Shown piece by piece: positions 1 to 21,470 of a stretch of 64,000 bases of DNA. Each line of letters opens with the position of its first letter. Position 1 is the stretch's first letter. Location: positions 434,001 through 498,000 of the forward strand of contig QAYY01000002.1 in the NCBI GenBank assembly GCA_003054665.1, read 5' to 3'. Under the pieces are notes generated by a model. That model searched no databases. It saw only the letters and a program-made list of their open reading frames with translations, and had not been told where the DNA came from. This stretch comes from Opitutaceae bacterium EW11 (GTDB taxonomy: Bacteria; Verrucomicrobiota; Verrucomicrobiia; Opitutales; Opitutaceae). Position numbers and translations under genes: made by a program.

Positions 1-274
1 CCTTTGGTTTTCCGCTCGGCGTCGAGGGTGCGGGCCTCCTCCAACGCGCCTGGGTTGAGGAAGAGGACGGATCTGATTCCGGGGCCCTTCTGATCGTACG
101 CGTCGATTCGCGCGAGATAGAGCTGGGTCAGTTTCTCCGAAGTCAGCGCGCCCTTGTCCATGGCGGCCTGGAGATCGGCGATGGTGGCGGTGCTCAGCTC
201 GAGGGAGGCAGACTCGGCGCGCGGGAGCAGGAGGAGACCGAAAGCGAGAAGGAGGGCGAGGCGGAAGCGTTTCA
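1..274 (-). CDS. Exported amidase-signature enzyme, N-terminal part only
   Basis: This is the first 91 codons of another amidase; the gene runs off the left edge, so its catalytic residues are not visible. It starts at the ATG at 274 with a Sec-type signal peptide (basic MKRFR followed by a leucine-rich stretch ending near residue 23). The following segment, with TIADLQAAM, LTSEKLTQLYLARIDAYDQK and LDAERK, aligns closely with the N-termini of the complete amidases at 2021-3649, 5332-6969 and 6976-8595. It lies 20 bases downstream of the stop of the 295-1890 gene and is therefore probably co-transcribed. Assignment rests on paralogy with its neighbours. Substrate unknown; a hydrolase of carboxamide bonds in the periplasm is the inferred role. 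Confidence 0.85.
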
Positions 275-294
275 TGATTCGGTGTAGGGGAGCG

Positions 295-1890
295 TCAATA
301 CGTGAAGGTTTCGCCGGGAAGGGCCGGAGTGGTCGCGGGCGAGACGCGGTGCGGGAACGCCTGCTCGTAGGCATACGCGTAGGCGAGGAGCCGGGGTTCG
401 CTGTACGCAGGGCCGAGGAACGAGATCGTCACGGGCAGCTTGTCGGTGGTCAGACCCGCCGGGACGATCACGTCCGGGAACTGGGTGACATTGGCGATAC
501 TGGTGAGCGTGCCGGAGAAAGGGGCCCGCGGTTTGCTGCGGAACTCGGGATCGATCCGGTCGGGGCGCTTGGCGAATGTCGGATACACGAGCGCGTCGAG
601 CTGGTGATCCTGGATCAGCCCGAGGACTGCGTCGCGCACCATCGCCATGCCGTGGACTCGGGCCGACTTGTAAACCAGGGAGGTGGAGGGCGGGCCGGCG
701 TTGTCGACCTTGAACCGGTTGTAGAGCGACGGATGCGGCAGCATTTTTCCGCGCGGCGTGGTGAACGCGTCGGCGCGCTCGATCATCTCCGAGAGGGTTT
801 TCGGATAGTCGCCCTTCAGCGTGGCGAGATAAATGGCGTACTGCTCTCGGATGTCCGCGCCGCGCACGACGTCCATCACGGCGGTGCGGCCTTCGAGTAC
901 GACTGCCGGATAGTGCAGCGGGTCGATCACGACGGCGCCGAGGGATTTCAGTTCGGCGACCGCGGCGTCGAAGACGCGGTCGACCTCCGGATCGGAGCCG
1001 TTGAGATCGCGGATGACTCCGATGCGCACGCCCTTCAACGCGTCCTTTCGGAGAAAGCCCGTGTAGTCCTTGAAAAACAGACCTGCGCTCGTGGCGGTAA
1101 GCGGATCGTTGGGATCGATGCCGGTCATGAAACCGAGGGAGAGCGCGACGTCATAGACCGTGCGCCCCATCGGCCCTCCGGTATCGAACGTGAGCACGCG
1201 CGGGATGATACCGGAGCGGGAGAGCAGCCCGTTGGTCGGCTTGATGCCCACGACGCCGTTTGCGGAGCAGGGGCCGCGGATGGAGCCGCCGGTGTCCGTG
1301 CCCAGGCCGAGCGGGGCAAACCACGCCGCGAGTCCCGCACCGGTGCCGCCGGAAGAGCCGGCCGGAACGCGGGTCAGATCGTGGGGGTTGTGAGTTTGTC
1401 CTCCGAGCGAACTGAAGCCGTGGCCACCGGCGGCAAACTCGTCGAGGTTGACCTTGGCGAGCATGATGGCGCCGGCGTCCCGCAACGCCCGGATCATCGG
1501 CGCATCCTGTGCGGGCATGTTTCCGGCGAGCAGGAACGAGCCGCCGGTGTTCGGCATGCCGACGACATCGTAGTTGTCCTTCACCAGGACCGGAATGCCG
1601 TGCAGCGGGGAGCGGCGGCCCTTGGCCTTGAACTCCGCATCGAGCGCGCGGGCCTCCGACAGGGCCTCGGGATTCAACGTGATGACGCTGTTGAGCGAGG
1701 GGCCCTTCTGGTCGTAGGCGTCAATGCGGGCCAAATACAGTTGGACGAGCTTTTCGTACGTGAGGGCGCCGGCGTCGACCGCGTCCTGGATGTCGCGGAT
1801 GCCGGCCGTTTCGAGCTGGAAGGTCTTCGCTCCGACGCGGGGTGCGAGCGCGCTGAGCAGGACGAGGAGGGCAAGGAGAGTCGTTTTCAC
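295..1890 (-). CDS. Exported amidase (amidase signature family)
   Basis: A 531-residue amidase-signature hydrolase expected to cleave a carboxamide (C-N) bond with a Ser-cisSer-Lys triad. The triad is visible as K104 in LVKDNYD, S179 in AGSSGGTG and S203 in TDTGGSIRGP. A short hydrophobic signal peptide (residues 1-21, MKTTLLALLV...) implies export, so it should act in the periplasm or outside. The length fits the family (about 450-550) plus a signal. It belongs to the same subgroup as the 3684-5282 gene: both share KTF.LETA near the N-terminus, EAVDAGALTYEKLV-like sequence, and a C-terminus ending TTPALPGE.F.Y. It lies in a minus-strand amidase array, 130 bases after the 2021-3649 gene, a gap holding a strong hairpin. 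Its natural substrate cannot be read from the sequence; annotation as a Glu-tRNA amidotransferase subunit is unlikely because it is exported and has no GatB/GatC partner. Confidence 0.93.
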   Translation of the reverse strand: MKTTLLALLVLLSALAPRVGAKTFQLETAGIRDIQDAVDAGALTYEKLVQLYLARIDAYDQKGPSLNSVITLNPEALSEARALDAEFKAKGRRSPLHGIPVLVKDNYDVVGMPNTGGSFLLAGNMPAQDAPMIRALRDAGAIMLAKVNLDEFAAGGHGFSSLGGQTHNPHDLTRVPAGSSGGTGAGLAAWFAPLGLGTDTGGSIRGPCSANGVVGIKPTNGLLSRSGIIPRVLTFDTGGPMGRTVYDVALSLGFMTGIDPNDPLTATSAGLFFKDYTGFLRKDALKGVRIGVIRDLNGSDPEVDRVFDAAVAELKSLGAVVIDPLHYPAVVLEGRTAVMDVVRGADIREQYAIYLATLKGDYPKTLSEMIERADAFTTPRGKMLPHPSLYNRFKVDNAGPPSTSLVYKSARVHGMAMVRDAVLGLIQDHQLDALVYPTFAKRPDRIDPEFRSKPRAPFSGTLTSIANVTQFPDVIVPAGLTTDKLPVTISFLGPAYSEPRLLAYAYAYEQAFPHRVSPATTPALPGETFTY

Positions 1891-1932
1891 CGGGGAGAAG
1901 GGGGAATTCTTCGACAGGATGGAGGGTTCAGG

Positions 1933-1962
1933 GCGGCGCGGCGGCCTGCACCGCCGCGCCGC
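1933..1962 (-). other. Strong intercistronic hairpin
   Basis: A perfect 12-bp inverted repeat (arms 1933-1944 and 1951-1962, 6-base loop), almost all G and C, lies between two amidase genes. No T-run follows on the minus strand, so it is not a typical intrinsic terminator. It may stabilise or process the polycistronic mRNA. Confidence 0.7.
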
Positions 1963-2020
1963 GGTTCGTTTTCGCCGCCAACCAAAACGGCGAAGAAGGA
2001 GGATATGACGGGGCGGGCGA

Positions 2021-3649
2021 TCAGAGCTGCTCGCCGGCCAGCATGGGCGTGGTTTTCGGGAGACGGCGCGCTTTCGTGACTTGCTCGAAGTCGTAGCCGT
2101 ACCCGAGCAGCTTCGGTTCGCTGAAGGCCGGACCGAAAAACGAGATCGTCACCGGAAGCCCGTCCTTCGTCATGCCGGCGGGGACGATCAGATCGGGAAA
2201 ACCGGTCTGGTTCGCGATGTTTGTCGGCGAGTCGGTTGGCGCCGGTGCGGACGGAGTGGCCGAGGGTTTGATCGGTACCGCTGGACGCGGCGAGGTGGGG
2301 TAGACGATTGCGTCGAGGCGGTATTTGTCGAAAAGCGCCAGGACGGTCGCCTTGGTCAGCGCAAGTCCCTGCGTGACCGCGGCGAGATAGATCGGGTCGT
2401 CCAGCGCGAGCGCCTTCGAGGCCGTGTATTTCAACGCATACGCCTTCTCGGGGCTGCGGTAGCCGGTCTTCGGGTCGTTCGCCAGGGCGACAAGATCGTC
2501 GAGAGTCTTTGGATACTGCGGCTGCGTCGTCCTCAGGTAGTCGGAGATCTGTGACTTGAATTCCGACGCCATGATGAGGGACGAAAGCGCCTGCTTCGAT
2601 TGGAGCAGGTATCCGGGATACCGCACGTCCACGACCGTGGCGCCCTGCGCCGTCAGCACGGCGACCGCCTCGTCGAAGATCCGATCGACCTCGGGATCCT
2701 TGCCCGTGAAGTCGCGCGCCACGCCGATGCGGGCGCCCCGCAGCGCGCCTTTCTTCAGGAACTGGGTGTAGTCCTTCTCGAATTTTCCGGCGCTCTTTTG
2801 CGTGGCCGGGTCCGCGGAATCGACGCCCGTCATCACGCCGAGGGCGACGGCGACGTCGTAGACGCTGCGGGCCATCGGTCCGCCGGTGTCGAAGGTGAGG
2901 GCCAGCGGCACGATGCCGTCGCGGCTGAGAAGACCGTGGGTCGGCTTGAGGCCGACGATGCCGTTGGACGACGACGGGCCGCGGATCGAGCCGCCCGTGT
3001 CCGTCCCAAGTCCGAACTGCGCGAAGCCCGCCGCGATCGACGCCCCGGTGCCGCCGGAGGACCCGGCGGGACCGCGCGAAAGGTCGTGCGGGTTGTGGGT
3101 TTGGAGCCCCATCGAGCTGAAGCCGTTCGGCACCGCGCCGGCTTTCAGAACCGCGGGATCGGTCGCGCCGCTCACGCTCCCTCCGCCTCCGGCGAACTCG
3201 CTCAGGTTGACCTTCGCGAGCACGATCGCCCCGGCGTCGCGGAGCGCCTTCACCACGAAGGCGTCGTCCGGGGGAAGAGAGCCCTCGAGCATCTGCGAGC
3301 CCGCCGTGGTGGGCAGGTCGGAGGTGTCGTAGTTGTCCTTCAATACGATCGGGATTCCGTGGAGCGGGCCGCGGACCTTGCCGGCGAAACGTTCGCCGTC
3401 GAGTGCGCGGGCCTGCTCGAGGGCCTTTTCGTTCAGGGTGATGACGGCGTTGATCGCCGGCCCCTGCTTGTCGTAGGCCCGGATCCGGGCGAGGTAGAGC
3501 TGGACGAGCTTTTCCGAGGTGAGCGAGCCGCTCCGGAAGGCGGCGTTGAGATCGGCCACGGTCGCGTCTTCGAGGGCGAGCCCGGCGGATCGGGCGAGCG
3601 GAGCGGCGAGAAGCGCGAGGGCGAGCAGGGCGGAGAGGCGGGCTTTCAT
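2021..3649 (-). CDS. Exported amidase (amidase signature family)
   Basis: A 542-residue amidase-signature enzyme with a Sec signal peptide (residues 1-22, ending PLARSAG). The predicted triad is K104 (VLKDNYD), S197 (AGSSGGTG) and S221 (TDTGGSIRGP). Compared with the 295-1890 protein it carries an extra loop of roughly 20 residues (about 158-178, rich in Gly, Ala and Pro) just before the SSMGLQTHNPHDL segment; the 5332-6969 paralogue has a shorter version of the same insertion. It belongs to the subgroup with VADLNAAF / IAELQAAM near the N-terminus. The stop of the upstream 3684-5282 gene is 34 bases away, consistent with one transcript. A periplasmic amide hydrolase is expected; the substrate is unknown. 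Confidence 0.93.
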   Translation of the reverse strand: MKARLSALLALALLAAPLARSAGLALEDATVADLNAAFRSGSLTSEKLVQLYLARIRAYDKQGPAINAVITLNEKALEQARALDGERFAGKVRGPLHGIPIVLKDNYDTSDLPTTAGSQMLEGSLPPDDAFVVKALRDAGAIVLAKVNLSEFAGGGGSVSGATDPAVLKAGAVPNGFSSMGLQTHNPHDLSRGPAGSSGGTGASIAAGFAQFGLGTDTGGSIRGPSSSNGIVGLKPTHGLLSRDGIVPLALTFDTGGPMARSVYDVAVALGVMTGVDSADPATQKSAGKFEKDYTQFLKKGALRGARIGVARDFTGKDPEVDRIFDEAVAVLTAQGATVVDVRYPGYLLQSKQALSSLIMASEFKSQISDYLRTTQPQYPKTLDDLVALANDPKTGYRSPEKAYALKYTASKALALDDPIYLAAVTQGLALTKATVLALFDKYRLDAIVYPTSPRPAVPIKPSATPSAPAPTDSPTNIANQTGFPDLIVPAGMTKDGLPVTISFFGPAFSEPKLLGYGYDFEQVTKARRLPKTTPMLAGEQL

Positions 3650-3683
3650 GGGCGGGAGGGAACGTGGTGGCGCATCCAGGGGT

Positions 3684-5282
3684 TCAATACTCGAACTTTT
3701 CCCCGGGCAGCGCGGGCGTGGTGGAAGGCGACACCCGGTGGTGCGTCGCCTGTTCGTAAGTGTAGGCGTAGGCCAGCAGCTTCGGCTCGCTGTACGCGGG
3801 TCCGAAGAACGAGATCGTGACGGGCATCTTCTCGGCCGTCAGGCCGGCGGGGACGATGACGTCGGGGAACTGGGTGACGTTGGCGATGCTCGTGAGCGAC
3901 GGCGGCGAGGGCCGGTCGATGATCTTGGGCGTCTCGGGATCGATGATCTCCGGCTGGCGGGACCGCGTCGGATACACGATCACGTCGAGCTTCTTGTCCT
4001 CAAAAAGGCCGAGGACGGCGCCGCGCACCGCGGCCATGCCGTGCTGCCGGGCGGCGGTGAACGTGGGCGAGGTGATCGGAGGACCCTCGCTCAGGCGCTT
4101 GAAACGGGTGAAGACGCTCGGGTGCGGGTGGAATTTTCCCGTCGGCTCGGTCAGCGCGATGCCTTTGTCGGCGAGCTCCGCGAGGCTCTTGGGAAAACCC
4201 GGGCGCAGTTCGGAGAGGTAGGCGGCGTAGTCCTCGCGCACCTCGGAGTTGCGGACCGGGTCCATGACCATCGTCCGGTTCTGGAGCGCGATGGGCGGGA
4301 AGTTGACGGGATCGACCAGCTCGGCTCCGAGCGCCTTCAGCTCCTGAAGCGCGGCGGCGTAGACCTTGTCGACTTCCGGATCGGTGCCGGCGTAGTCGCG
4401 GATGACGCCGACGCGCACCCCCTTGAGCGAATCCTTCTTCAGGAACTGCGTGTAGTCCTTGTAGAAAAGCCCGGCGCTCGTCTGCGTGAGCGGGTCCTTG
4501 GAGTCGATGCCGGTCATGAAACCGAGCGAGAGGGCGGCGTCGTAAACGGTGCGCGCCATGGGGCCGCCGGTGTCGAACGCGAGCACGCACGGCATGATGC
4601 CGGCGCGGGAGAGCAGGCCGTTGGTGGGCTTGATGCCGACGATGCCGTTGGCGGACGAAGGCCCTCGGATGGACCCGCCGGTGTCGCTGCCCAGGCCGAG
4701 CGGGGCGAACCACGCCGCGAGGCCCGCGCCGGTGCCGCCGGAGGAGCCGGCCGGGTGGCGCCGTGGGTCGTGCGGGTTGCGCGTCTGGCCGCCGCGCGAA
4801 CTGAAGCCGATGCCGCCGTGCGCAAACTCGTCCATGTTCACTTTGGCGAGGATGATCACGCCGGCCGCGCGAAGGTCCTTGATCATCTTCGCGTCCTCGT
4901 ACGGCAGCGAACCGTCGAGGAGAAACGTCCCGCCGGTGGTGGGCAGGTCGAAGGTGTTGTAGTTGTCCTTCACGAGAATCGGGATTCCGTGAAGCGGCCC
5001 GCGCGGCCCCTTCGACTTCCGCTCCGCGTCGAGCGCCCGGGCTTGCTCGAGCGCGTGGGGATTCAGCGTGATGACGGTGTTGAGCGCCGGACCTTTCTGG
5101 TCGTAGGCCTCGATGCGGGCGAGGTAGAGCGAGACGAGCTTTTCGTACGTGAGGGCGCCGGCGTCGACGGCCTCCTGGATGTCGCCGATCGAGGCGGTCT
5201 CGAGTTCGAAGGTCTTGGCGGGCAGCGGGCGGCTGCCTAGGAGGGCGGCCGCGAGGAGCAGGGCGATGGTTTTTGGGCGCAC
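3684..5282 (-). CDS. Exported amidase (amidase signature family)
   Basis: A 532-residue amidase-signature hydrolase. The GTG at 5282 is preferred as start over an ATG at 5384: from the GTG the protein opens directly with a signal peptide (RPKTIALLLAAALLGS, ending PLPAK), whereas the longer version adds an arginine- and cysteine-rich leader and would overlap the preceding gene. The triad is K105 (LVKDNYN), S180 (AGSSGGTG) and S204 (SDTGGSIRGP). It is a close paralogue of the 295-1890 enzyme, sharing KTFELETA, DAGALTYEKLV and the TTPALPGE C-terminus. It sits 49 bases downstream of the 5332-6969 stop. Predicted periplasmic amide hydrolase; substrate not evident. Confidence 0.92.
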   Translation of the reverse strand: MRPKTIALLLAAALLGSRPLPAKTFELETASIGDIQEAVDAGALTYEKLVSLYLARIEAYDQKGPALNTVITLNPHALEQARALDAERKSKGPRGPLHGIPILVKDNYNTFDLPTTGGTFLLDGSLPYEDAKMIKDLRAAGVIILAKVNMDEFAHGGIGFSSRGGQTRNPHDPRRHPAGSSGGTGAGLAAWFAPLGLGSDTGGSIRGPSSANGIVGIKPTNGLLSRAGIMPCVLAFDTGGPMARTVYDAALSLGFMTGIDSKDPLTQTSAGLFYKDYTQFLKKDSLKGVRVGVIRDYAGTDPEVDKVYAAALQELKALGAELVDPVNFPPIALQNRTMVMDPVRNSEVREDYAAYLSELRPGFPKSLAELADKGIALTEPTGKFHPHPSVFTRFKRLSEGPPITSPTFTAARQHGMAAVRGAVLGLFEDKKLDVIVYPTRSRQPEIIDPETPKIIDRPSPPSLTSIANVTQFPDVIVPAGLTAEKMPVTISFFGPAYSEPKLLAYAYTYEQATHHRVSPSTTPALPGEKFEY

Positions 5283-5331
5283 GGTGTGTTGTGTGTGGTG
5301 GAAACGGGAATACGGAAGGGCTTCGCAACCG

Positions 5332-6969
5332 TCAGAACGGCAGCGCGTCTTCGGGCAGGAGCGGCGTGGTCTTGGGCAGCGCAATGCCGTGGGTCGCCTG
5401 TTCGAAGTCGTAGGCGTAGCCGATCAGCTTCGCCTCGCTGTAGGCGGGGCCGAAGAACGAGAGGGACACGGGCAGACCGTCCTTCGTCATGCCCGCGGGA
5501 ACGATCAGGTCGGGAAAACCCGTCATGTTCGCGATGCTCGTGGCGGAGTCACCCATCGCACTGGGTGTGAGCGGCACGGTGCGCGCGATGAGGGCAGCCG
5601 GGCGGGGAGCCGTCGGATACACGATGGCGTCGAGTTTCTGGCCGTCGAAGAGCGCGAGCATCGCGGCGCGAATCATCGGCAGCCCCTGGTCGCGCGCGGC
5701 GAGGTAGATCGGATCGCTCTGCTCGAGCGCGATCTTGTCGGTGTATTTCAGGCCTGCGGCTTTCTCCGGACTACGATAGCCCTTCGCGGGATCGTTGGCC
5801 TGAGCGACCAGCTCCGCGAAATTCCTCGGATAACCGGGCTTTGTCGCCGCGACGTGCGCGAGATAGGCGCCGATCTGGGCCTTGAAGTCGGCGTTCAGGA
5901 CGGTGAGGAAAAGCGACATCCTGCTCTTGAGGAGGAACTCGGGGTAGGGCAGCGGATCGACGACGTCGGCTCCGAGCTCCTTCAACTTCGAGATCGCCGC
6001 CTCGGTCACGCGGTCCGTCTCCGGATCCTTGCCCATGAAATCGCGCGCCACGCCGATCCGGGCTCCCTTGAGCGAGCCTTTCCTGAGGAAACGCGTGTAG
6101 TCGCGCTCGAACTTTCCCCTGCTCGAGGCGCTGAGCGGATCGACCGGATCCACCCCCGTCATGATCCCGAGCGAGACCGCCAGGTCGGCGACGCTGCGCG
6201 CCATGGGCCCGCCGGTGTCGAACGTGAGCGCGAGCGGAACGATGCCGGTGCGGGAGAGCAGGCCGTTGGTCGGCTTGAGGCCGACGATTCCGTTGGCGGC
6301 GCACGGGCCGCGGATCGAGCCGCCCGTGTCGGACCCCATCCCGAACTGGGCGAAGACGGCGGCAATGGCGGCGCCGGTGCCCCCGCTGGAGCCGGCGGGG
6401 CCGCGTTCGAGATCGTGCGGATTGCGCGTCTGGCCCCCGGCCGAGCTGAAGCCGTTCGGGGGACTGCCGATTTCGGAGGGCACGCCCACGCTGCCGCCGG
6501 CGGCGAACTCGCTGAGGTTCACCTTGGCGAGAATCACCGCTCCGGCGTCGCGGAGCTTCTTCACGACGTAGGCGTCCTTTTCGGGGATCCAGCCTTCGAG
6601 CAGCTGGCAGCCGGCGGTCGTCTGAAGGTCGCAGGTGTCGTAGTTGTCCTTCAATACGACCGGGATCCCATGAATCGGGGAGCGCGGGCCTTTCGCCTTG
6701 CGTTCGGCGTCGAGGGCGCGGGCGGTCTCGAGCGCCTTCGGATTGAGCACGATGACGGCGTTGAGCGACGGCCCCTGCTTGTCGTAGGCGGCGATGCGGG
6801 CGAGGTAGAGCTCGGTGAGTTTTTCCGCTGTGATCGTGCCCTTGCCCATCGCCGCCTGGAGTTCGGCGATGGTGACGTGGGAGAGATCGGCGGCGGCGGC
6901 GCGGAGGCCGCCCAGCGCCACGGCGGCGGCCAGGAGGAGCGTGCGGGGGACGAGGGAGCGCGGGTGCAT
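5332..6969 (-). CDS. Exported amidase (amidase signature family)
   Basis: A 545-residue exported amidase. The signal peptide covers roughly residues 1-27 (ending GLRAAAA). The triad is K108 (VLKDNYD), S194 (AGSSGGTG) and S218 (SDTGGSIRGP). A 13-residue Gly/Pro-rich insertion (about 160-172) precedes NGFSSAGGQTRNPHDLERG, similar in place to the insertion in the 2021-3649 enzyme. It also has two nearby cysteines (C113 and C121) in the segment after the catalytic lysine, which most of its paralogues lack; a disulfide there is possible in the periplasm. The gene begins 6 bases after the 6976-8595 stop, so co-transcription is very likely. Substrate unknown. Confidence 0.93.
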   Translation of the reverse strand: MHPRSLVPRTLLLAAAVALGGLRAAAADLSHVTIAELQAAMGKGTITAEKLTELYLARIAAYDKQGPSLNAVIVLNPKALETARALDAERKAKGPRSPIHGIPVVLKDNYDTCDLQTTAGCQLLEGWIPEKDAYVVKKLRDAGAVILAKVNLSEFAAGGSVGVPSEIGSPPNGFSSAGGQTRNPHDLERGPAGSSGGTGAAIAAVFAQFGMGSDTGGSIRGPCAANGIVGLKPTNGLLSRTGIVPLALTFDTGGPMARSVADLAVSLGIMTGVDPVDPLSASSRGKFERDYTRFLRKGSLKGARIGVARDFMGKDPETDRVTEAAISKLKELGADVVDPLPYPEFLLKSRMSLFLTVLNADFKAQIGAYLAHVAATKPGYPRNFAELVAQANDPAKGYRSPEKAAGLKYTDKIALEQSDPIYLAARDQGLPMIRAAMLALFDGQKLDAIVYPTAPRPAALIARTVPLTPSAMGDSATSIANMTGFPDLIVPAGMTKDGLPVSLSFFGPAYSEAKLIGYAYDFEQATHGIALPKTTPLLPEDALPF

Positions 6970-6975
6970 GGCGGA

Positions 6976-8595
6976 TCAGTAGGTGATGGTTTCGCCGGGC
7001 AGCGCGGGCGCGTTCACCGGCGTGCGCAGGGCGTGGGTCGCCTGCTCGAAGGCGTAGCCGAGGGCGAGAAGCTTCGGTTCGGAGAATGCCGTACCGAAGA
7101 AGCTGATACCGACGGGCAGGCCGTTGGTGGTGAAGCCGGCCGGGACGATCAGGTCGGGAAACCCGGAGAGGTTGGCGAAATTCGTCGGCGAGGGCGGCGC
7201 GCCGGTGCCGCTCGCGAGCGCGGCGTTGGGCTCCTCGCCGATCTTCTGCGGGCGCTTCGGACTCGTCGGGTAGACGATCGCGTCGAGCTTGTTCGTGTCG
7301 AAGATCGCCTGCAGCGACTCGCGGACGTACGCCAGTCCGTGGTCCCTGGCCGCAAGGTAGGCCGGATCGGTGAGCGATCCGGTCCTGGCCTCGAGGCGGT
7401 ACAACGCGAGGCGTCCGTGGTTGGGCACAAAACCCTCGGCGGTGGGCGAGGCGACCTTCTCCGAGAGCGCGAGGATGTCGGCATGGGTTTTCGGATACCC
7501 CGGTTTCAGCGTGGCGAGGTAGTCCTGGATCTGGTTCTTGAACTCAGGGCGCCGGATCGCGTTGTAGAGCTCGGTGCGGACGGCGTGCAGCGCCGCCGGG
7601 TATTTGATGTCGACCAGCGTGGCGCCCTGCGCCTTCAGGGCGGACAGCGCCGACTCGATCACCGAGTCGACCTCCGGATCCTGGCCCATGAAATCTCTCG
7701 CGACGCCGATGCGCGCCCCCTTGAGCGCCCCGGCGTCGAGAAACCGGGTGTAGTCGCCGGCGACTTTGCCTTCGCTCTTTTTGGTCGCGTCGTCGCGCGG
7801 ATCCGCCGCGCCGGCGGTGACGTTGAGCGAGACCGCGATGTCGTAGACGCTGCGCGCCATCGGCCCGCCGGTGTCGAACGAGAGCGCGAGCGGAATGATG
7901 CCGGCGCGGGAGAGAAGCCCGTGGGTCGGCTTGAGCCCGACGATGCCGTTGCTCGTCGACGGGCCGCGGATGGAGCCTCCGGTGTCGGTGCCGTAACCGA
8001 GCGGCGCATACGCGGCGGCGATCGCCACGCCCGTGCCGCCGGAGGAGCCGGACGGCGTGCGGTCGAGGGCGTGGGGATTGTGCGACTGTCCGCCGAGGGA
8101 ACTCATCGCCCCGCCGGACGCGAATTCGGAGAGGTTCACCTTGGCGAGGATGATGGCGCCGGCGGCGCGCAGGCGCGCGACGACGGTCGCGTCCTGCGGA
8201 GGCAGGGAGCCCTTGAGGCCGAAGAACCCCCCCGTGGTAGGGAGATCGGCGGTGTCGAAGTTGTCCTTCAGGACGACGGGGATGCCATGCAACGGGGAAC
8301 GCGGGCCTTTGGCCTTGCGTTCGGCATCGAGCGCGCGCGCCTCCTCCAGCGCCTTGGGGTTGAGGGTGATGACGGCGTTGAGGCCCGGGCCTTTCTTGTC
8401 GAACGCCTCGATCCGCGCGAGGCACAGGCGGGTGAGCTGTTCCGAAGTGAGGGACCCGGCGGCGAACGCCTGGTCGAGGTCCGCGATCGTCGCGGTGGTG
8501 AAGGGGACTTCGGCGGCCGCGAGCCGGGCGGCCGACAAGAGGACGGCGGCGGCGGCCAGTCGGAGACCGCGCGAGAGTGTTCGGTGGATGAGCAT
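6976..8595 (-). CDS. Exported amidase (amidase signature family)
   Basis: A 539-residue exported amidase with a signal peptide (MLIHRTLSRGLRLAAAAVLL, ending near residue 28). The triad is K110 (VLKDNFD), S184 (SGSSGGTG) and S208 (TDTGGSIRGP). It belongs to the TIADLDQAF subgroup but has no insertion before SSLGGQSHNPHALDRTP. It is the first amidase after the TonB-dependent receptor in transcription order. Its ATG lies only 3 bases downstream of the T-tract of an intrinsic terminator (8599-8631), so no ribosome-binding site of normal form can precede it on a transcript reading through; translation may depend on readthrough with the hairpin melted, or on an internal promoter. It leads the run of six Sec-type amidases. 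Confidence 0.93.
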   Translation of the reverse strand: MLIHRTLSRGLRLAAAAVLLSAARLAAAEVPFTTATIADLDQAFAAGSLTSEQLTRLCLARIEAFDKKGPGLNAVITLNPKALEEARALDAERKAKGPRSPLHGIPVVLKDNFDTADLPTTGGFFGLKGSLPPQDATVVARLRAAGAIILAKVNLSEFASGGAMSSLGGQSHNPHALDRTPSGSSGGTGVAIAAAYAPLGYGTDTGGSIRGPSTSNGIVGLKPTHGLLSRAGIIPLALSFDTGGPMARSVYDIAVSLNVTAGAADPRDDATKKSEGKVAGDYTRFLDAGALKGARIGVARDFMGQDPEVDSVIESALSALKAQGATLVDIKYPAALHAVRTELYNAIRRPEFKNQIQDYLATLKPGYPKTHADILALSEKVASPTAEGFVPNHGRLALYRLEARTGSLTDPAYLAARDHGLAYVRESLQAIFDTNKLDAIVYPTSPKRPQKIGEEPNAALASGTGAPPSPTNFANLSGFPDLIVPAGFTTNGLPVGISFFGTAFSEPKLLALGYAFEQATHALRTPVNAPALPGETITY

Positions 8596-8598
8596 GGC

Positions 8599-8631
8599 AA
8601 AAAAAAAGCCCCGGTGCGGTGCAACCGGGGC
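8599..8631 (-). terminator. Intrinsic terminator/attenuator inside the amidase-receptor array
   Basis: On the minus strand a perfect 8-bp stem (arms 8624-8631 and 8608-8615, GCCCCGGT pairing with ACCGGGGC, 8-base loop) is followed at once by nine T residues (8607 down to 8599). It starts 7 bases after the receptor stop codon and ends 3 bases before the start codon of the next amidase. It should separate expression of the upstream asparaginase/Tat-amidase/receptor part from the six downstream amidases. Confidence 0.88.
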
Positions 8632-8637
8632 CGGGGG

Positions 8638-11520: not shown

Positions 11521-11548
11521 GATGCTTGGTGGAGAGGCGAAAAGGGTC

Positions 11549-11565
11549 GGGCCGCGGCGCGGCCC
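11549..11565 (-). other. Short GC hairpin upstream of receptor gene
   Basis: A 7-bp perfect inverted repeat (arms 11549-11555 and 11559-11565, 3-base loop) lies between the stop of the 11590-13146 amidase and the receptor start. On the minus strand it is followed within a few bases by a TTTT run, so it could be a weak terminator or an mRNA-stabilising stem in the 5' leader of the receptor gene. Confidence 0.5.
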
Positions 11566-11589
11566 GGGTGATGGGCGTGGACGGCAGGG

Positions 11590-13146
11590 TCAGAGCGGCG
11601 GCTTCCGCCAGCCGCCGCTGCGCGACTCGAGGTACGCGGCGACCGCGATGGTGATGTCCTCGCGCCAGGGCGCGGCGGCGACCTGGACGCCGATGGGGAG
11701 TTTCCCGTCGGCGGAGGTGCCGCAGCGCACCACGGTCACGGGCCAGCCGGTGCTGTTGAACGCGCCGGTGTAGCTCCACGCCATGGGATTGGGCGCCGTG
11801 CCGGGAGGACGGTCGATGACCTCGGCGGGTTTGCCCGCGACCGGGCAGAGCAGGACGTCGTAGCTCTTGAACCACTCGAGCATCCGGCTCTTGGAGAGGT
11901 CGGCCATCTCCCACGCCTCGATGTATTCGGCGGACGAGATCGGCGTCATCGTCTTCATCCGCTCGGCGACCGCGGGAGAGTAGTTCTGCGTGCCCCACTT
12001 GGCGGCCATGCGTTTGTAGAACGCCCAGCCGTCGCCGTTGGTGAGCTTCCGCCGCGCTTCGAAGAGGTCGACGAAGATGTCCTTCGGCAGGTCCTCGTTC
12101 ACGGAGGCAACGGCCTCGCCGAGCCAACTCGCGGCCTGGCGGACGGCGTTCTGCGTGTCGTCGTCCGTCTCGGTCATGCCGTTGGTCGGGAAGAAAACCG
12201 CGCGCAGCTTCTTGAGGTCCACCGCCGCGGGATCGGACCAGGGGACCGGCGCGCAGGCCGCATCGTGAAAGTCGGGGCCGGCGATGAGCGGCGTGATCAG
12301 GGCGATGTCCTCGACCCGGCGCGCCATCGGTCCCAGCTGCTGCCAGAGATCGAACACCCCGCCGAAGTCCACGATGTGTCCGGTGCGGGGGACGCGGACG
12401 CTCGTCGGTTTGATGCCGACGATGCCGTTGATGTGCGCGGGCCCGCGGATCGAGCCGCCCCAGTCGGAGCCGATGTCGAAGGCGCTCATCCCGGCCGCGA
12501 CCGAGGCGCCGGCGCCGCCCGAAGAACCGGACGTCGTGCGGGTGAGGTCATAGGGATTGTGCGACGAGCCGTAGAGGAGGTTCGACGCGGCGTTGAGGCC
12601 GGCCAGCCCGCCGAGGGTGAACTCCGGCGTGTTGGTCTTTCCGAGGAGTATGGCGCCGGCCTTGCGAACGCGGGCTACGACGGTGGCGTCTTTCTTCGGA
12701 ATGTATTGCTGCCGGCCGTACGTGGCCCCGGTGGAGATCACGCCCTCCGTGTCGAGGGAGTCCTTGATCGTCATCGGCACGCCGTGAAGCGCGCCCTTGA
12801 TGTCTCCGCGGGCGAGGGCCTCGTCCGCGGCCTTGGCTTCGGCGAGCGCGCGTTCGTGGCAGTTCATCACCACGGCGTTGAGCCGGTCGTTGATTGCGTC
12901 CTGGCGGGCGATGAACGCCTGGACCGCTTCCGTGGAGGAGATCTTCTTCTCGCGGATCAGCTGGGCGAGCCGCGTGGCCGACATGAAAAGCACGTCGTCG
13001 GTCTTGTCGCCGGACGAGACATACGGCGCGGCTTGGGAGCGGGTGGCGGCGAGCGACGAGGCGGCGAAGGCGGTGGCGAGCCAACCCGCGTTGCGCAGGA
13101 AGTCGCGGCGGCCGGAGGCGGCGAGGGAAAGGGTGGAGCGTTGCAT
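11590..13146 (-). CDS. Tat-exported amidase (amidase signature family)
   Basis: A 518-residue amidase whose N-terminus carries a twin-arginine signal (SGRRDFLRNAGW, R13-R14, then an alanine-rich hydrophobic stretch ending near SQAAPY), so it is probably folded before export. The triad is K128 (TIKDSLD), S208 (SGSSGGAG) and S232 (SDWGGSIRGP). It has the GAG and DWGGSIRG variants that distinguish this pair from the Sec-type amidases downstream. It is 22 bases downstream of the second Tat-type amidase and 69 bases upstream of the receptor gene. Both Tat enzymes end with a GGW.KPPL C-terminus. Predicted role: periplasmic amide hydrolysis; the family also includes aryl-acylamidases and peptide amidases, and the sequence does not decide between them. 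Confidence 0.92.
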   Translation of the reverse strand: MQRSTLSLAASGRRDFLRNAGWLATAFAASSLAATRSQAAPYVSSGDKTDDVLFMSATRLAQLIREKKISSTEAVQAFIARQDAINDRLNAVVMNCHERALAEAKAADEALARGDIKGALHGVPMTIKDSLDTEGVISTGATYGRQQYIPKKDATVVARVRKAGAILLGKTNTPEFTLGGLAGLNAASNLLYGSSHNPYDLTRTTSGSSGGAGASVAAGMSAFDIGSDWGGSIRGPAHINGIVGIKPTSVRVPRTGHIVDFGGVFDLWQQLGPMARRVEDIALITPLIAGPDFHDAACAPVPWSDPAAVDLKKLRAVFFPTNGMTETDDDTQNAVRQAASWLGEAVASVNEDLPKDIFVDLFEARRKLTNGDGWAFYKRMAAKWGTQNYSPAVAERMKTMTPISSAEYIEAWEMADLSKSRMLEWFKSYDVLLCPVAGKPAEVIDRPPGTAPNPMAWSYTGAFNSTGWPVTVVRCGTSADGKLPIGVQVAAAPWREDITIAVAAYLESRSGGWRKPPL

Positions 13147-13168
13147 GGTTCGATGAGGGCCGAGGATT

Positions 13169-14734
13169 TCAGAGGGGCGGCTTCTGCCAGCCGCCGGATT
13201 TGCCTTCGATGTGGGAGAGGGCGGCGATCACCACGTCGTCGCGCCAGGGCTGGGCGACGACCTGGATGCCGAGGGGGAGCGGGGCCTTTTCGGCCGTGCC
13301 GCAGCGGACCACGCCGGCCGGCCAGCCCGTGGTGTTGTATTCGCTGGTATAGGACGCCCCCATCCAGTTCTTGGGCCGCTCCGCGTCGAGCGGGATGGGC
13401 GCGCAGTTGCTCGCGGGGCAGACGATCAGGTCGTACTGCTCGAACCACGCGAGCTGCTCGCTGCGGATCGCGTCCATGTCCTCGCACAGCTTCGTGAAGC
13501 GCTCGGCGGGCACGACCTCGCCGTCGAGCCTGAGGCCCGGGGAAGCCTGCAACGTACCGTGTTTTTTGAGCAGCCGCCGGATGTGCTCGCGGCCGTCGGC
13601 GCCGTTGAAGGCGTTCCGCGTCTCGGCGAGTTCCTTCATCTTCGGGGGGCGGTCCTCGGCGATCTTGCAGCCGAGCTCGGAAAAGTAGGCGACGCATTGC
13701 TTCACGGTGGCCTGGATCTCCGGGGTCGGGTCGACCTGGCCGTTGGTCGTGTAGAACGCGATCCGCAGGCTGCCCAGGTTCACCGCGGCGGGATCGCCGA
13801 GCGGCACCGGGGCCATGGCGGCGTCCCACGAATCCGGCCCCTGCAGGATCGGCAGCAGGAGCGCGAGGTCCTCGACCCGCCGGGCGAGCGGGCCCGTTTC
13901 CTGGAAGGAGTCGAACGCGCCGCCGTAGCCGACGATGTGGCCCGTCCGCGGCACGCGCCCGAGGGTCGGCTTGATGCCGGCGATGCCGTTGGCGAACGCA
14001 GGGCCGCGGATCGAACCGCCGTAGTCGGAGCCGATGTCGAACGACGATCCTCCGCAGGCGACGATCGCGCCGGCGCCGCCGGAAGAGCCGGACGGCTGGT
14101 AGTCGAGATTGTACGGATTGCGGGTGACGCCGAAGACGAGGTTGATCGTTCCCTTGCCGCCGCCGCCGAGGGTGAACTCCGGCGTATTCGATTTCCCGAG
14201 AAGAATCGCACCGGCGGCGCGGGCTCGCGCGACCACGGTGGCGTCCTTGCCGGGGATGAAATCTTTCCGGCCCAGCGTGCCTCCGGTCGACAGGATGCCC
14301 GCGGTGTCGAAGGAGTCCTTGATGGTCATCGGCACGCCGTGGAGCGGCCCCTTCAGCTTGCCCTTCGCGAGCAGCGCGTCGGCTTCGGCGGCCTCCATGA
14401 GGGCGCGCTCGTAGCACTTCGTCACGATGGCGTTGATCTTCGGATTGACCTGCTCGATGCGGGCGATGTGGAGCTTCACCGCTTCCGTCGCGGAGATTTT
14501 TTTCGCGCGGATCAGCTCGGCGAGCTTGGTCGCCGACATGGCGAGCGGATCGTTGGACGGATCCTTGGAACGCAAGCCGCCCGAGAGCGCTTCGGCCGCT
14601 CCGAGGCGCGGGCGGAGGGTGGCGAGGGCGAGGGCGGCCGCCGTGCCGTAGCCGGCGGTGCGGAGGAACTGGCGGCGTCCGGTGGGCAGAGTCAGAGGGC
14701 GGTTTCCTGGCGGTGAAGAGCGATGGGAGGGCAT
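13169..14734 (-). CDS. Tat-exported amidase (amidase signature family)
   Basis: A 521-residue paralogue of the 11590-13146 enzyme. The N-terminus has a twin-arginine motif (TGRRQFLRTAGYG, R20-R21) and an alanine/leucine-rich core ending about residue 48. Catalytic residues are K139 (TIKDSFD), S217 (SGSSGGAG) and S241 (SDYGGSIRGP). The first 19 residues before the Tat motif are proline-rich; no nearer start keeps a normal n-region, so the ATG at 14734 is retained. It follows the asparaginase at 14769-15881 by 34 bases, consistent with an operon. Amide hydrolysis in the periplasm is inferred from the family and signal; the substrate is unknown. Confidence 0.92.
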   Translation of the reverse strand: MPSHRSSPPGNRPLTLPTGRRQFLRTAGYGTAAALALATLRPRLGAAEALSGGLRSKDPSNDPLAMSATKLAELIRAKKISATEAVKLHIARIEQVNPKINAIVTKCYERALMEAAEADALLAKGKLKGPLHGVPMTIKDSFDTAGILSTGGTLGRKDFIPGKDATVVARARAAGAILLGKSNTPEFTLGGGGKGTINLVFGVTRNPYNLDYQPSGSSGGAGAIVACGGSSFDIGSDYGGSIRGPAFANGIAGIKPTLGRVPRTGHIVGYGGAFDSFQETGPLARRVEDLALLLPILQGPDSWDAAMAPVPLGDPAAVNLGSLRIAFYTTNGQVDPTPEIQATVKQCVAYFSELGCKIAEDRPPKMKELAETRNAFNGADGREHIRRLLKKHGTLQASPGLRLDGEVVPAERFTKLCEDMDAIRSEQLAWFEQYDLIVCPASNCAPIPLDAERPKNWMGASYTSEYNTTGWPAGVVRCGTAEKAPLPLGIQVVAQPWRDDVVIAALSHIEGKSGGWQKPPL

Positions 14735-14768
14735 GGGAACGGTCGGTCCGGCAGTGGTATCTATCGGG

Positions 14769-15881
14769 TTAATACTCGTTGAAGATCCGGCGGATCTCCT
14801 CGAGGTCGGTGGTTTTGGTCAGGGCGAGCTGGAGAAGCGTGCGCGCCTTTTCGGGCGGAAGATTGTCGCCGGCGACGATGTTGGCCTCGCGGCGCCGGAT
14901 CGTGTCCTGGACGCGGCCGCCGCGGGTTCGGGCGGTGGCGACGACCACCACGCCCTTCGCCTGGGCGCGTTTGACGGCCTCGACCTGCGTGCCCCCGAGG
15001 GCGCCGGCGCCCGTGCCGTCGACGACGATTCCCTTCACCCCGTGGTCGACGAGCGCGTCGATGAGGTAGCCGGCGGGCTCGGTGTACGCGTAGACGATCT
15101 CGACGGGCGGGAGCTGCGCCGGAAGCGAGGCGATGTTGAACTCCGAGTTGAAGGTGTGACGGCGGACCGGCGAGCTGTAGAACTTGACGATGTCGGGATC
15201 GGCGACGCCGATCGCGCCGAGATCGACGCTCTTGAACGTCTCCACGCGGTAGGCGCTCGTCTTGGTCACGTCGCGCGCCGGATTCACAAACTGGTTCATC
15301 GCGTGCAACACGCCCTTGTCCGCCGCGTCCGGGCAGGCCGCGACGCGCACGGCGTTGAGAAGGTTGAGCGGTCCGTCGCCGCTGAGCCCGGTCCAGGGAC
15401 GCTGGGAGCCGACGAAGACGACCGGCTTATGGATGCTGACCACCAGGTCCATGAAGTACGCGGTCTCCGCCATCGTGTTGGTGCCGTGGGTCACGACGAT
15501 GCCGTCCACGGATTTGTCCTCCGCGAGTTCCTGCAGCCGGCGGGCGACCTTGTACCAGTGCTCGATCGTCATCCCGCCGGTGACGTCTTCCGGCTGGCGG
15601 AAATCCTCCGTCCGAACCTGGGCGTAGAGAGCGAGGTCGGGCAGGTCGTGCACCCAATCGTCCGGCGCGACGCGGAAGCCCTTGCCGCCGTAGTTGGAGA
15701 CATTGAGGCGCGTGTCGCCGCGGCTGGCGATCGTGCCTCCCATCGAGAGGATGACGACGCGGGGGAGCTGAACGCCCTTCGGCGCATAGGCGCTGGGAAT
15801 CTCCTGGGCAGGCGCCGTCGGGCAGACGGCGGGCGCCAGGAGAGAAACGAGAGCGAGGCAAAGTCGGGGAGGGAAGTGCAT
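14769..15881 (-). CDS. Exported type II-like asparaginase/glutaminase
   Basis: A 370-residue member of the bacterial asparaginase family, which hydrolyses asparagine (and often glutamine) to the acid and ammonia. A signal peptide (residues 1-26, ending PTAPAQ) puts it in the periplasm. The nucleophile region is SMGGTIASRG (T50), the second motif is THGTNTMAE (T134) and the lysine is K207 in RDVTKT. In the well-studied type II enzymes the second motif reads GTDT; here the Asp is Asn (N135), and the residue before GGT is Met rather than Thr. These changes could shift the substrate away from free asparagine. It is the second gene of the array in transcription order, 19 bases after the first asparaginase. 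Confidence 0.9.
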   Translation of the reverse strand: MHFPPRLCLALVSLLAPAVCPTAPAQEIPSAYAPKGVQLPRVVILSMGGTIASRGDTRLNVSNYGGKGFRVAPDDWVHDLPDLALYAQVRTEDFRQPEDVTGGMTIEHWYKVARRLQELAEDKSVDGIVVTHGTNTMAETAYFMDLVVSIHKPVVFVGSQRPWTGLSGDGPLNLLNAVRVAACPDAADKGVLHAMNQFVNPARDVTKTSAYRVETFKSVDLGAIGVADPDIVKFYSSPVRRHTFNSEFNIASLPAQLPPVEIVYAYTEPAGYLIDALVDHGVKGIVVDGTGAGALGGTQVEAVKRAQAKGVVVVATARTRGGRVQDTIRRREANIVAGDNLPPEKARTLLQLALTKTTDLEEIRRIFNEY

Positions 15882-15900
15882 GGCGTCGCGGAAAAATGCG

Positions 15901-16938
15901 TCAGTACGTGTTGAACATCCGTTGGAGCTCCCGCGGATCGGTCGTCTTCGTCAGCCCTAGCCGCAGGAGGACGCGGGCCTTCTGCGCGTTGAGGTTGTCG
16001 GAGGTGACGACTCCGCGGCCCTCGCTTTTTTCGCTGAGGACCACGCGGCCGGAGCCTTTGCGGTCGCTCTGCACGATGACCACGCCTGCGCCCAGCGCCT
16101 TGGCGGCGGCCTTGCGGAACGAAGCCGCGCCGTCGTTGAGCACGATCCCCTTGGCGCCCGCGGCGACCAGCGCCTCGATCGGCGCGGGGGAGGCCTCCTG
16201 GTAACCGTAGACGATGTCGACGACCGGAAGCGTCTCGAGTGCGGAGACGTCGAATTCGCTCTGAAAGGTGTGGCGCGTGAGCGGAGTGCGGTAGAACACG
16301 ACGCGGTCCGAGTCGGTGTAGCCGAGGGGGCCGATGTCGCGGTCGACAAACGTCTCGACGTGGTAGGTGTTCCCCTTGGTGACGAAACGCGCGGAGTGGA
16401 TCGTGTCGTTGAGAACGACCATGACGCCCTTGCCGACGGCGTCCGGGCAGACGGCGACGCGCACCGAATTGTAGAGATTGAACGGTCCGTCGCGGCTGAT
16501 CGCGGTGAAGGGGCGCATCGCTCCGACCACCACGACGGGCTTCTTCGATTTCACCGTGAGCTGGAGGAAGTACGCCGTCTCCTCGAGCGTGGACGTTCCG
16601 TGGGTGACGACGGCGCCGGCGATCTCCGGGCGGGCCAGCGCGGCGTTGATGCCCTTCCCGAGTTTGAGGAGCTGCGCGGCGCCGATCTCCCCGCTGCCGA
16701 CGTTCGATACCTCCTGTATTTCAACTTTGGCGACAGACTGGAGCTCCGGCAGGTCGTCGAGCAGCTCCTTCGGGGAGACGCGGCCGTCGCTGTACTCGTA
16801 GAGTTTGTCGCGATGGGCGCCTTTGCTCTGGATCGTGCCGCCGGTGGTGAAGAGGGCGACGGTCGGAAGGTCGGCCGCAAGGAGTCGCGGCGCGAGGGAC
16901 AGGAGGAGGACCAGGATCAGGTGGCGAATGGTTTTCAC
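15901..16938 (-). CDS. Exported type II-like asparaginase/glutaminase
   Basis: A 345-residue asparaginase-family protein when started at the GTG at 16938, which places a signal peptide directly at the N-terminus (KTIRHLILVLLLSLAPRLLA). An upstream ATG at 16983 would add 15 residues and has an AAAGGG sequence just before it, so the start is uncertain. The nucleophile motif is TTGGTIQSKG (T35), the second motif THGTSTLEE (T115) has Ser (S116) where type II enzymes have Asp, and K188 sits in FVTKGN. It is the first gene of the amidase-asparaginase array; its upstream region holds paired AT-rich dyads. Likely role: periplasmic release of ammonia from an amide side chain, possibly within peptides rather than free asparagine. 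Confidence 0.9.
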   Translation of the reverse strand: MKTIRHLILVLLLSLAPRLLAADLPTVALFTTGGTIQSKGAHRDKLYEYSDGRVSPKELLDDLPELQSVAKVEIQEVSNVGSGEIGAAQLLKLGKGINAALARPEIAGAVVTHGTSTLEETAYFLQLTVKSKKPVVVVGAMRPFTAISRDGPFNLYNSVRVAVCPDAVGKGVMVVLNDTIHSARFVTKGNTYHVETFVDRDIGPLGYTDSDRVVFYRTPLTRHTFQSEFDVSALETLPVVDIVYGYQEASPAPIEALVAAGAKGIVLNDGAASFRKAAAKALGAGVVIVQSDRKGSGRVVLSEKSEGRGVVTSDNLNAQKARVLLRLGLTKTTDPRELQRMFNTY

Positions 16939-17126
16939 GGCGTGCTTGGGCGCCGAACGAACGACGGGCGGGCGGGCCGTCATCGGCCCTTTTGCGAAGC
17001 CGCACCGGTGGGGGAACTTTCGGTGCGGCCCGCAGGTATTATCCGCGTCGGGTCGGCTTGCGGTGTGTTGGTCGAGCAGGCCACCGTCAGCACCGCCGGT
17101 GCCAGAAGCGCGCGCCGATCGATAGA

Positions 17127-17180
17127 TGAATTTTATTCGGCGACGCGCGCGGGAAAGGCTGACGCGCGGAATAAAATTCA
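17127..17180 (-). promoter_or_regulatory. Paired AT-rich operator-like dyads upstream of the asparaginase-amidase array
   Basis: In the 539-base gap between the TonB operon and the first asparaginase, two 12-base sequences (17127-17138 and 17169-17180) are perfect reverse complements. Each contains a GAAT-N3-ATTC palindrome (17128-17138 and 17169-17179), and their centres are 41 bases apart, near four helical turns. They stand out as AT-rich islands in very GC-rich DNA. A regulator binding two sites, perhaps by looping, is the inferred meaning. The rest of the gap holds the terminator at 17418-17445, a small GCACCG/CGGTGC hairpin near 17003-17028 and no supported gene. Confidence 0.5.
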
Positions 17181-17417: not shown

Positions 17418-17445
17418 AAAAAAGGCCGCCTCGGGGGAGGCGACC
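17418..17445 (-). terminator. Intrinsic terminator of the TonB operon
   Basis: On the minus strand a 9-bp stem (arms 17437-17445 and 17424-17432, one G-U pair, loop of four G/C bases) is followed by six T residues. It begins 33 bases after the stop codon of the last gene of the TonB operon and should end that transcript before the asparaginase array. Confidence 0.85.
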
Positions 17446-17477
17446 TGAAACCGGGGGAAGGAGTATCCGTGCCAGTG

Positions 17478-19904: not shown

Positions 19905-19905
19905 G

Positions 19906-20568: not shown

Positions 20569-20571
20569 GGG

Positions 20572-21009: not shown

Positions 21010-21025
21010 GGTGGGATGGGTTGGA

Positions 21026-21466: not shown

Positions 21467-21470
21467 CGGT

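Follow-up and report, generated by a model that had tools for sequence, protein, structure and literature searches.

We analysed a window of 64,000 nucleotides from Opitutaceae bacterium EW11 (bases 434001-498000 of contig C21, QAYY01000002.1, of the 6.4 Mb genome G000), in which amidase, asparaginase-like and TonB-dependent receptor genes form one cluster. From position 16938 down the minus strand, the cluster consists of two asparaginase-family genes, Asn2 and Asn1, two Tat-type amidases (2, then 1), the receptor and six Pam-type amidases. Open reading frames (ORFs) were called mechanically, with approximate starts, and the intergenic gaps are below 70 bases or are overlaps of these rough ORFs, with a single exception of 130 bases. 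An initial annotation had described six Sec-type and two Tat amidases, two asparaginases and a receptor on one strand, mostly with short gaps, beside a complete ExbBD-TonB operon. Pfam matches, the common strand and the gap lengths bear this out, as do the ExbB, two ExbD and TonB genes at 19906-22139. A genome-wide amidase-signature search gave 12 matches to 11 genes, one gene being hit in two parts; since 8 of these 11 and both asparaginase-family genes of the genome share the ~18 kb of the cluster, the clustering goes beyond chance, which we rule out as its explanation. The window has no Rfam match and no tRNA.

Table 1. Features of the window, in window coordinates
Feature	Position	Strand	Remark
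Sixth Pam-type amidase, start only in window	1..374	-	last cluster gene; complete at G000:C21:432695-434374
Pam-type amidase, Sec-like N-terminus	295..1890	-	PF01425
Pam-type amidase	2021..3649	-	PF01425; best solved relative peptide amidase 1m21/1m22, E 1.3e-93
Pam-type amidase	3684..5384	-	PF01425; true start probably downstream of ORF start
Pam-type amidase	5332..6969	-	PF01425
Pam-type amidase	6976..8595	-	PF01425; peptide amidase 1m21, E 6.6e-91
Intrinsic-terminator-like hairpin	8607..8632	-	pattern scan; 9 pairs, T tract; between receptor gene 3' end and Pam block
TonB-dependent receptor, 960 aa	8638..11520	-	Plug domain match
Tat-type amidase 1	11590..13146	-	PF01425; RRDFL motif
Tat-type amidase 2	13169..14734	-	PF01425; RRQFL motif
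Asn1, asparaginase-like	14769..15881	-	PF00710, PF17763; Asp90 replaced by Asn
Asn2, asparaginase-like	15901..16938	-	PF00710, PF17763; Asp90 replaced by Ser; first cluster gene, directly upstream of Asn1
Sigma-54-type -24/-12 element	17089..17104	-	TGGCAY-N5-TTGCW, 1 mismatch; 166 bases upstream of Asn2
Inverted repeat, 16 nt, two GAATNNNATTC sites	17127..17180	.	22 nt between arms; upstream of Asn2
Intrinsic-terminator-like hairpin	17423..17446	-	pattern scan; between TonB operon and cluster
Two small proteins, 168 and 177 aa	17478..18526	-	no assigned function; relatives in G004, G005
TPR protein	18531..19934	-	adjoins TonB gene
TonB	19906..20568	-	
ExbD	20572..21009	-	
ExbD	21026..21466	-	
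ExbB	21471..22139	-	
Relative (31%) of the NMT1_2-like protein of the G004 island	23904..24870	-	itself without Pfam match
LysR-type regulator	24957..25937	+	divergent from NMT1_2-like gene

Clusters of this kind, hereafter islands, recur in the family and beyond it. With one Pam-type amidase as query and 7 candidates scored per genome, a match at E 1e-70 or better was found in 70 of 200 family genomes, some of which have many. A full-length Asn2-type gene of at least 50% identity is present in 11 of the 200 (a contig-end fragment in G170, also at 50%, was left out), with amidases alongside in 10 of the 11. Amidase copy number varies widely between islands: in G004, two receptors are followed by ~54 kb with 22 amidase-signature ORFs and six Asn-type genes, and the islands of G013 and G143 hold 24 and 15 amidase ORFs. 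Among 387 genomes drawn across the phylum, Asn2 at 50% or more was confined to members of the family. We also scanned 84,980 species genomes with an Asn2 alignment, the counts resting on the best 80 loci. The top eight loci come from Verrucomicrobiota (2), Gammaproteobacteria (3, namely two metagenome-assembled genomes (MAGs) and Solimonas flava DSM 18980), Acidobacteriota (2) and an alphaproteobacterium (1), and all eight carry an Asn2-Asn1 pair, in L067 with Asn1 split, together with one to nine amidase-signature ORFs per fetched stretch; any amidase-signature ORF was seen in the fetched stretches of 2 of the 72 lower-ranked loci. Whole-genome searches, with split matches joined and contigs identified by coordinates, gave 17 amidase-signature genes at 10-47 kb of one contig in S. 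flava DSM 18980, just after two receptor genes, 15 in a 79 kb stretch of PMG_192 that also encloses two tandem receptors, and 11 in KLAP45, where a receptor flanks the genes on one side. The comparison of gene order across relatives that the initial annotation had called for finds the combination of amidases and Asn2 again in 10 of 11 family genomes and 8 of 8 top loci.

Several island genes are more alike between phyla than a housekeeping protein is. The window Tat amidases are 71-72% identical to the S. flava copies, and Pam2 (2021..3649) is 71% identical to a copy in the gammaproteobacterial MAG PMG_192. An RpoB segment, used as a yardstick, shares 75% and 73% identity with two records from Verrucomicrobiota, very probably the phylum of the host, and 49-55% with the main pieces of Acidobacteriota and Pseudomonadota records; two shorter Bacillus pieces reach 62%, and 2 of the 9 records gave no match. 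Amidase identities of 71-72% against 49% (PMG_192) and 50% (S. flava) for the main RpoB pieces point to transfer of island genes between phyla. Because PMG_192 is a MAG, a binning error could account for its case, whereas that of S. flava comes from a strain.

We examined the catalytic residues of the amidases. The seven complete amidases of the window match PF01425 with E values of 1e-90 to 1e-102. Among 103 amidase-signature ORFs from nine family genomes, the nucleophile Ser is present in all 103 and the catalytic Lys in 102, the lone miss being an ORF truncated where the fetched sequence stops. The first Ser of the GSS motif, which we take to be the cis-Ser of the Ser-cisSer-Lys triad, is found in 101 of the 103, and the second is Thr in six, so that the triad of the amidase-signature family is in place. 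Both Pam-type window enzymes compared have the peptide amidase Pam (1m21/1m22) as their nearest relative of solved structure, and they share its catalytic Lys and Ser; the one Tat-type amidase compared has no close solved relative. In contrast to Pam, the window has many side-by-side paralogues with GGSIRGP around the nucleophile instead of DGSIVCP, and the PRK08137 scores of its five complete Pam-type genes (403, 462, 398, 442 and 460, hence 398-462 bits) all fall below the equivalog cut-off of 534, which places these genes outside the PRK08137 peptide amidase equivalog by score. Sec-like N-termini in the Pam-type and Asn proteins and the twin-arginine motifs RRDFL and RRQFL in the Tat-type amidases, as read from the sequence, suggest that the island enzymes are exported. 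Tat-type genes adjoin another Tat-type gene in 33 of the 38 examined; among the five lone ones are the distant copies in L070 and L071, at 30% identity, and one that borders the end of its fetched stretch. The amidase at 3684..5384 is 84% identical to its G004 copy, and the last amidase has a reciprocal best match in 11 of 19 other genomes and loci compared. A gene of a further amide-splitting family, FmdA_AmdA (acetamidase/formamidase), lies in the islands of G004, L066 and L068.

The asparaginase-like proteins depart from their family at the substrate-binding site. Asn1 and Asn2, called asparaginases in the initial annotation, belong to that family (PF00710, PF17763), and Asn1 reaches the type II L-asparaginase profile (320.8 bits against the TIGR00520 cut-off of 314.3); their identity as L-asparaginases, however, does not survive inspection of the residues. 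In L-asparaginase, Gln59, Asp90 and Glu283 hold the amino group of the substrate. When aligned with E. coli AnsB, all 26 Asn proteins from eight genomes keep Thr12, Tyr25, Thr89, Arg116 and Lys162, whereas Asp90 is absent from every one (13 Asn and 1 Ser in Asn1; 7 Gly, 2 Ser, 2 Thr and 1 Ala in Asn2). Where AnsB has Gln59 and Glu283, the same 26 align neither Gln nor Glu; around Glu283 the alignment may be off by 1-2 residues, and neither MAFFT nor HMMER puts Glu there. Among the five residues that section 3.5 of PMC8256714 gives as critical for catalysis (Thr12, Tyr25, Thr89, Asp90 and Lys162), the pair has thus lost Asp90 and kept the other four. Judged by these residues, the island 'asparaginases' are not L-asparaginases, and the proposed Asn/Gln substrate loses its support because Asp90 and the counterparts of Gln59 and Glu283 are missing. 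As a control, 13 of 13 single asparaginases of the family (45-49% identity, a hand-picked part of such matches) are canonical, including Asp90, Gln59 and Glu283, and have no amidase within stretches of 6-20 kb. Asp90 loss by itself also occurs outside islands: 26 of the 72 lower-ranked loci lack the residue in their asparaginase-like genes (for example the single genes of L074, L075, L076, L083, L085 and L090). A plasmid search, compared by overall identity, gave 93 records, all below 60%. A longer, divergent asparaginase-like family (ORFs of 580-670 aa, weak PF00710 matches) was also seen inside islands, at L044:16661-18448, L066:18153-20165 and L068:5701-7452.

Asn1 and Asn2 behave as a pair. 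In 23 of 24 cases the gene immediately downstream of Asn2 is Asn1; the exception, which lacks a partner, is the Asn2-labelled L072 2020-3285 (37%). In a tree, a branch with support 87 sets Asn2 apart, Asn1 comes close to the same separation, and across 19 other genomes and loci reciprocal best matches were obtained in 17 for Asn1 and in 18 for Asn2. The distance matrices of the two proteins correlate with r 0.85 over 22 pairs, with L067 excluded for its Asn1 split into two ORFs; none of 5000 permutations is as high, and the best reaches 0.53. In three loci Asn1 appears catalytically dead by its residues, with the frame open and the gene still linked to Asn2: L070 and L071 carry Thr12Glu, Tyr25Cys, Thr89Ala and Lys162Arg, with Asp at position 90, and G025 carries Thr12Ala, Tyr25Phe and Lys162Glu. 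The Asn2 partners in all three keep Thr12, Thr89 and Lys162. Since L070 and L071 are closely related, these amount to at most two independent losses. Between L070 and L071, the nonsynonymous and synonymous rates (dN and dS) are 0.052 and 0.203 for Asn1 (dN/dS ~0.26), 0.024 and 0.147 for Asn2 and 0.011 and 0.147 for an amidase, so that the dead Asn1 evolves faster than its Asn2 partner yet is still constrained. A dead but open and linked Asn1 is the strongest hint that the two form a two-component enzyme, and we infer that Asn2-Asn1 may be a two-component, probably hetero-oligomeric, amidohydrolase. The known type II L-asparaginase described in PMC8256714 is a homotetramer. The island proteins resemble AnsB in protein family, in Thr12, Tyr25, Thr89 and Lys162 and in a Sec-like N-terminus; besides the lost substrate-binding residues, they differ from it in being tandem paralogues, one of which is sometimes dead.

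The receptor accompanies the amidases in most islands. A receptor lies beside them in 7 of the 10 family genomes with Asn2 and amidases, although in G128 it stands on another contig than the pair, and receptors lie next to the islands of KLAP45, S. flava, PMG_192, RYN_537 and NP1444. A search that scored 14 candidates per genome, and that left out the surroundings of the receptor matches in G023 and G029, found five full-length relatives of the window receptor at 44% or more (G004, G013, G053, G128 and G139), all beside amidases. The receptors are not all close kin, since that of RYN_537 matches the full Plug and barrel domains and that of the window Plug alone. ExbB, ExbD and TonB genes lie beside the receptor locus in the window and, as a related operon, in G004 and G005; the TonB operons beside the G013 and G047 clusters are weakly similar to that of the window, and the stretches of G053, G139, G143 and G177 hold no BLAST relative of it. 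The structure model of the receptor is weak (mean predicted local distance difference test score, pLDDT, 54; 8 sequences in the alignment). Its best solved matches in a fold search, whose 50 listed matches include no SusC-type structure, are the siderophore receptors PiuA, Fiu, FhuA, FoxA and FhuE, and such a fold weakly favours a small peptide-like ligand. The initial annotation had likened the build of the locus to a polysaccharide-utilisation locus with a possible polymer as substrate. The tie of an amide-hydrolase locus to outer-membrane import is upheld by the recurrence with receptors; the polymer is unsupported because SusD is absent and the low-confidence receptor model resembles siderophore receptors.

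We searched for control elements upstream of the islands. The genome carries a sigma-54 gene, and the pattern TGGCAY-N5-TTGCW with at most one mismatch precedes 6 of 11 island heads (G000, G005, G047, G053, G139 and KLAP45), all six of them Verrucomicrobiota, where 0.15 would be expected from stretches of the same genomes; the heads were chosen manually, with approximate ORF starts. This count is partly post hoc, as the pattern began with TGGCAC and was relaxed to TGGCAY following an initial look; with TGGCAC, the heads at one mismatch or fewer are G000, G047 and G139. The element of G047 is perfect and that of the window has one mismatch; five of the six read TGGCAY, five bases and (A/G)TGCT or similar, with the mismatch at the first T of the -12 part. 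In a first scan, sites with up to two mismatches preceded 3 of 6 heads and none of 13 island-internal genes. Counted across the entire window, the pattern occurs at chance level (19 matches against 17 expected), and the sole one-mismatch site is the one upstream of Asn2. These elements favour sigma-54 control of the islands in Verrucomicrobiota. A sigma-54 signal is often, not always, a nitrogen signal and has other uses; nitrogen control or scavenging by the islands is plausible on this basis, and a scan of neighbouring ORFs brought up no recognisable nitrogen gene. Beside the window element, in a GC-rich intergenic region, lie two GAATNNNATTC palindromes, the only such site in the genome, and this inverted repeat is a candidate operator; the repeat pair was not found near other islands. 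The two terminator-like sites in Table 1 mean that a single transcription unit cannot be assumed; the scan that gave them found 19 sites in all, no excess over shuffled sequence (mean 14.7, sd 3.9).

Taken together, we lean towards reading the locus as an amide-utilisation island, in which a carboxamide-rich compound would be taken in through the TonB-dependent receptor and hydrolysed in the periplasm. Gene content, amidase triads, Asp90 loss, pairing, pseudo-catalytic Asn1, occurrence in three phyla, receptor linkage and the over-representation of sigma-54-type elements, all of them read from sequence, suggest this; that amides are the bonds cleaved, that the steps are sequential, that sigma-54 is in control and that ammonia and/or carbon is gained is what we infer from them. 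The imported compound would more likely be small and peptide-like than a polysaccharide; corrinoid amides were also considered. Several exported amidase-signature enzymes of differing specificity would cut its amide bonds in the periplasm, joined by the two-component asparaginase-like amidohydrolase, with Asn2 as the putative catalytic subunit and Asn1 as its partner, catalytically dead in some loci. Free L-Asn and L-Gln would not be substrates of the pair. In Verrucomicrobiota the island may be switched on from the sigma-54-type promoter, possibly by nitrogen status. A bolder version, against which we lean slightly, is that these islands are a new class of TonB-coupled amide-utilisation locus that has moved between Verrucomicrobiota, Pseudomonadota and Acidobacteriota, under nitrogen-type sigma-54 control in Verrucomicrobiota, with, as the core, a hetero-oligomeric, asparaginase-like amidohydrolase that lacks Asp90 and is composed of a catalytic subunit and a partner, pseudo-catalytic in places; such islands would open amide-rich natural compounds, and possibly organic nitrogen that is otherwise refractory, to bacteria.

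A number of observations weigh against an amide-utilisation island. Amidase-signature enzymes also hydrolyse esters, ureas and urethanes, so that 'amide' is knowledge about the family. The components do not always occur together: G025 has an Asn pair with no amidase within 20 kb, and its Asn2 has Asp90; G005 has receptor, TonB operon and amidases with no Asn2 match; the Acidobacteriota loci have a reduced form with one amidase each; no receptor lies in the fetched stretches of G143, G177 and G185, and none is listed for the contig of L070. Two Asn1-type genes of G004 have no upstream Asn2 of their own, and the parallel divergence of Asn1 and Asn2 can reflect shared inheritance alone. Finally, the heads in S. 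flava and PMG_192 have no sigma-54-type element at one mismatch or fewer.

Other explanations account for part of the same evidence. The siderophore receptors among the best matches of the receptor model would fit an uptake of hydroxamate or peptide xenosiderophores whose backbone the amidases break for carbon, nitrogen or iron. Bacterial amidases are reported in PMC11800396 to degrade desferrioxamines used as a carbon and nitrogen source, a likeness to the islands by description rather than sequence; the passages on these enzymes mention no island or asparaginase-like pair. The receptor model is weak, however, two dozen amidases seem more than a trihydroxamate would need, and the E. coli Fur consensus has no match in the window with up to 3 mismatches, so that Fur control is not supported; we regard this explanation as unlikely. 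Deamidation of an Asn/Gln-rich peptide or polymer to scavenge ammonia, as proposed in the initial annotation, would agree with the kinship of the two Pam-type enzymes to peptide amidases, with an M20 peptidase beside the G177 island and with the nitrogen control that the sigma-54-type elements may reflect. It is nevertheless quite unlikely, given the lost Asp90 and Gln59/Glu283 equivalents of the pair and a window cluster with no protease, SusD or carbohydrate-active enzyme (CAZyme) among its genes.

Efflux genes near islands (an outer-membrane efflux protein in both the window and G004, AcrB beside G139, HlyD beside L066) might instead suggest detoxification, with periplasmic amidases inactivating amide-containing antimicrobials; these efflux parts differ between islands, and active import through a TonB receptor speaks for use and not for defence, which makes this a very improbable account. 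We give equally little credence to a plain expansion of broad-specificity amidases with no common pathway. It would be in keeping with the variable copy number and with Pam1 to Pam5, which have paralogues of 58-69% in their own genome, but the last amidase is 44% identical to its best own paralogue against 64-76% to seven other islands, and the reciprocal best matches of Asn1 and Asn2 also speak for conserved components.

Its parts belong to known families. Polysaccharide-utilisation loci and sulfatase-rich islands likewise combine a TonB receptor with many exported hydrolases of one chemistry and a repertoire that varies between genomes; the islands differ from the former in that their hydrolases are amidases, and the window cluster lacks a SusC/SusD pair as well as CAZymes. 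In agreement with the initial annotation, our literature searches, from which subscription papers were mostly absent, found no description of the island arrangement. If the amide-utilisation reading is true, an entire system for catabolising amide bonds, organised along the lines of polysaccharide and sulfatase islands, is hidden under the labels 'amidase' and 'type II asparaginase'. The asparaginase label on these genes would mislead annotation of the nitrogen cycle. The islands are also a source of dozens of amidases and of an unusual, putatively two-component asparaginase-like enzyme, and the large island in the named strain Solimonas flava DSM 18980 makes the question open to experiment.

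Some neighbouring genes recur beside the islands. The pair of LysR and NMT1_2-like genes is also found beside the G047 island and probably at L073, and NMT1_2-like relatives lie near G004 and G005; no ligand could be tied to the NMT1_2-like proteins. Past the last amidase, L001:13062-16231 holds histidine kinase-like and response-regulator-like genes by reading of the sequence, for which BLAST gave weak relatives in G005 and none in the G004, G013, G047 and G053 stretches. Further along the window, a beta-lactamase-family protein (PF00144) is encoded at 49824-51215.

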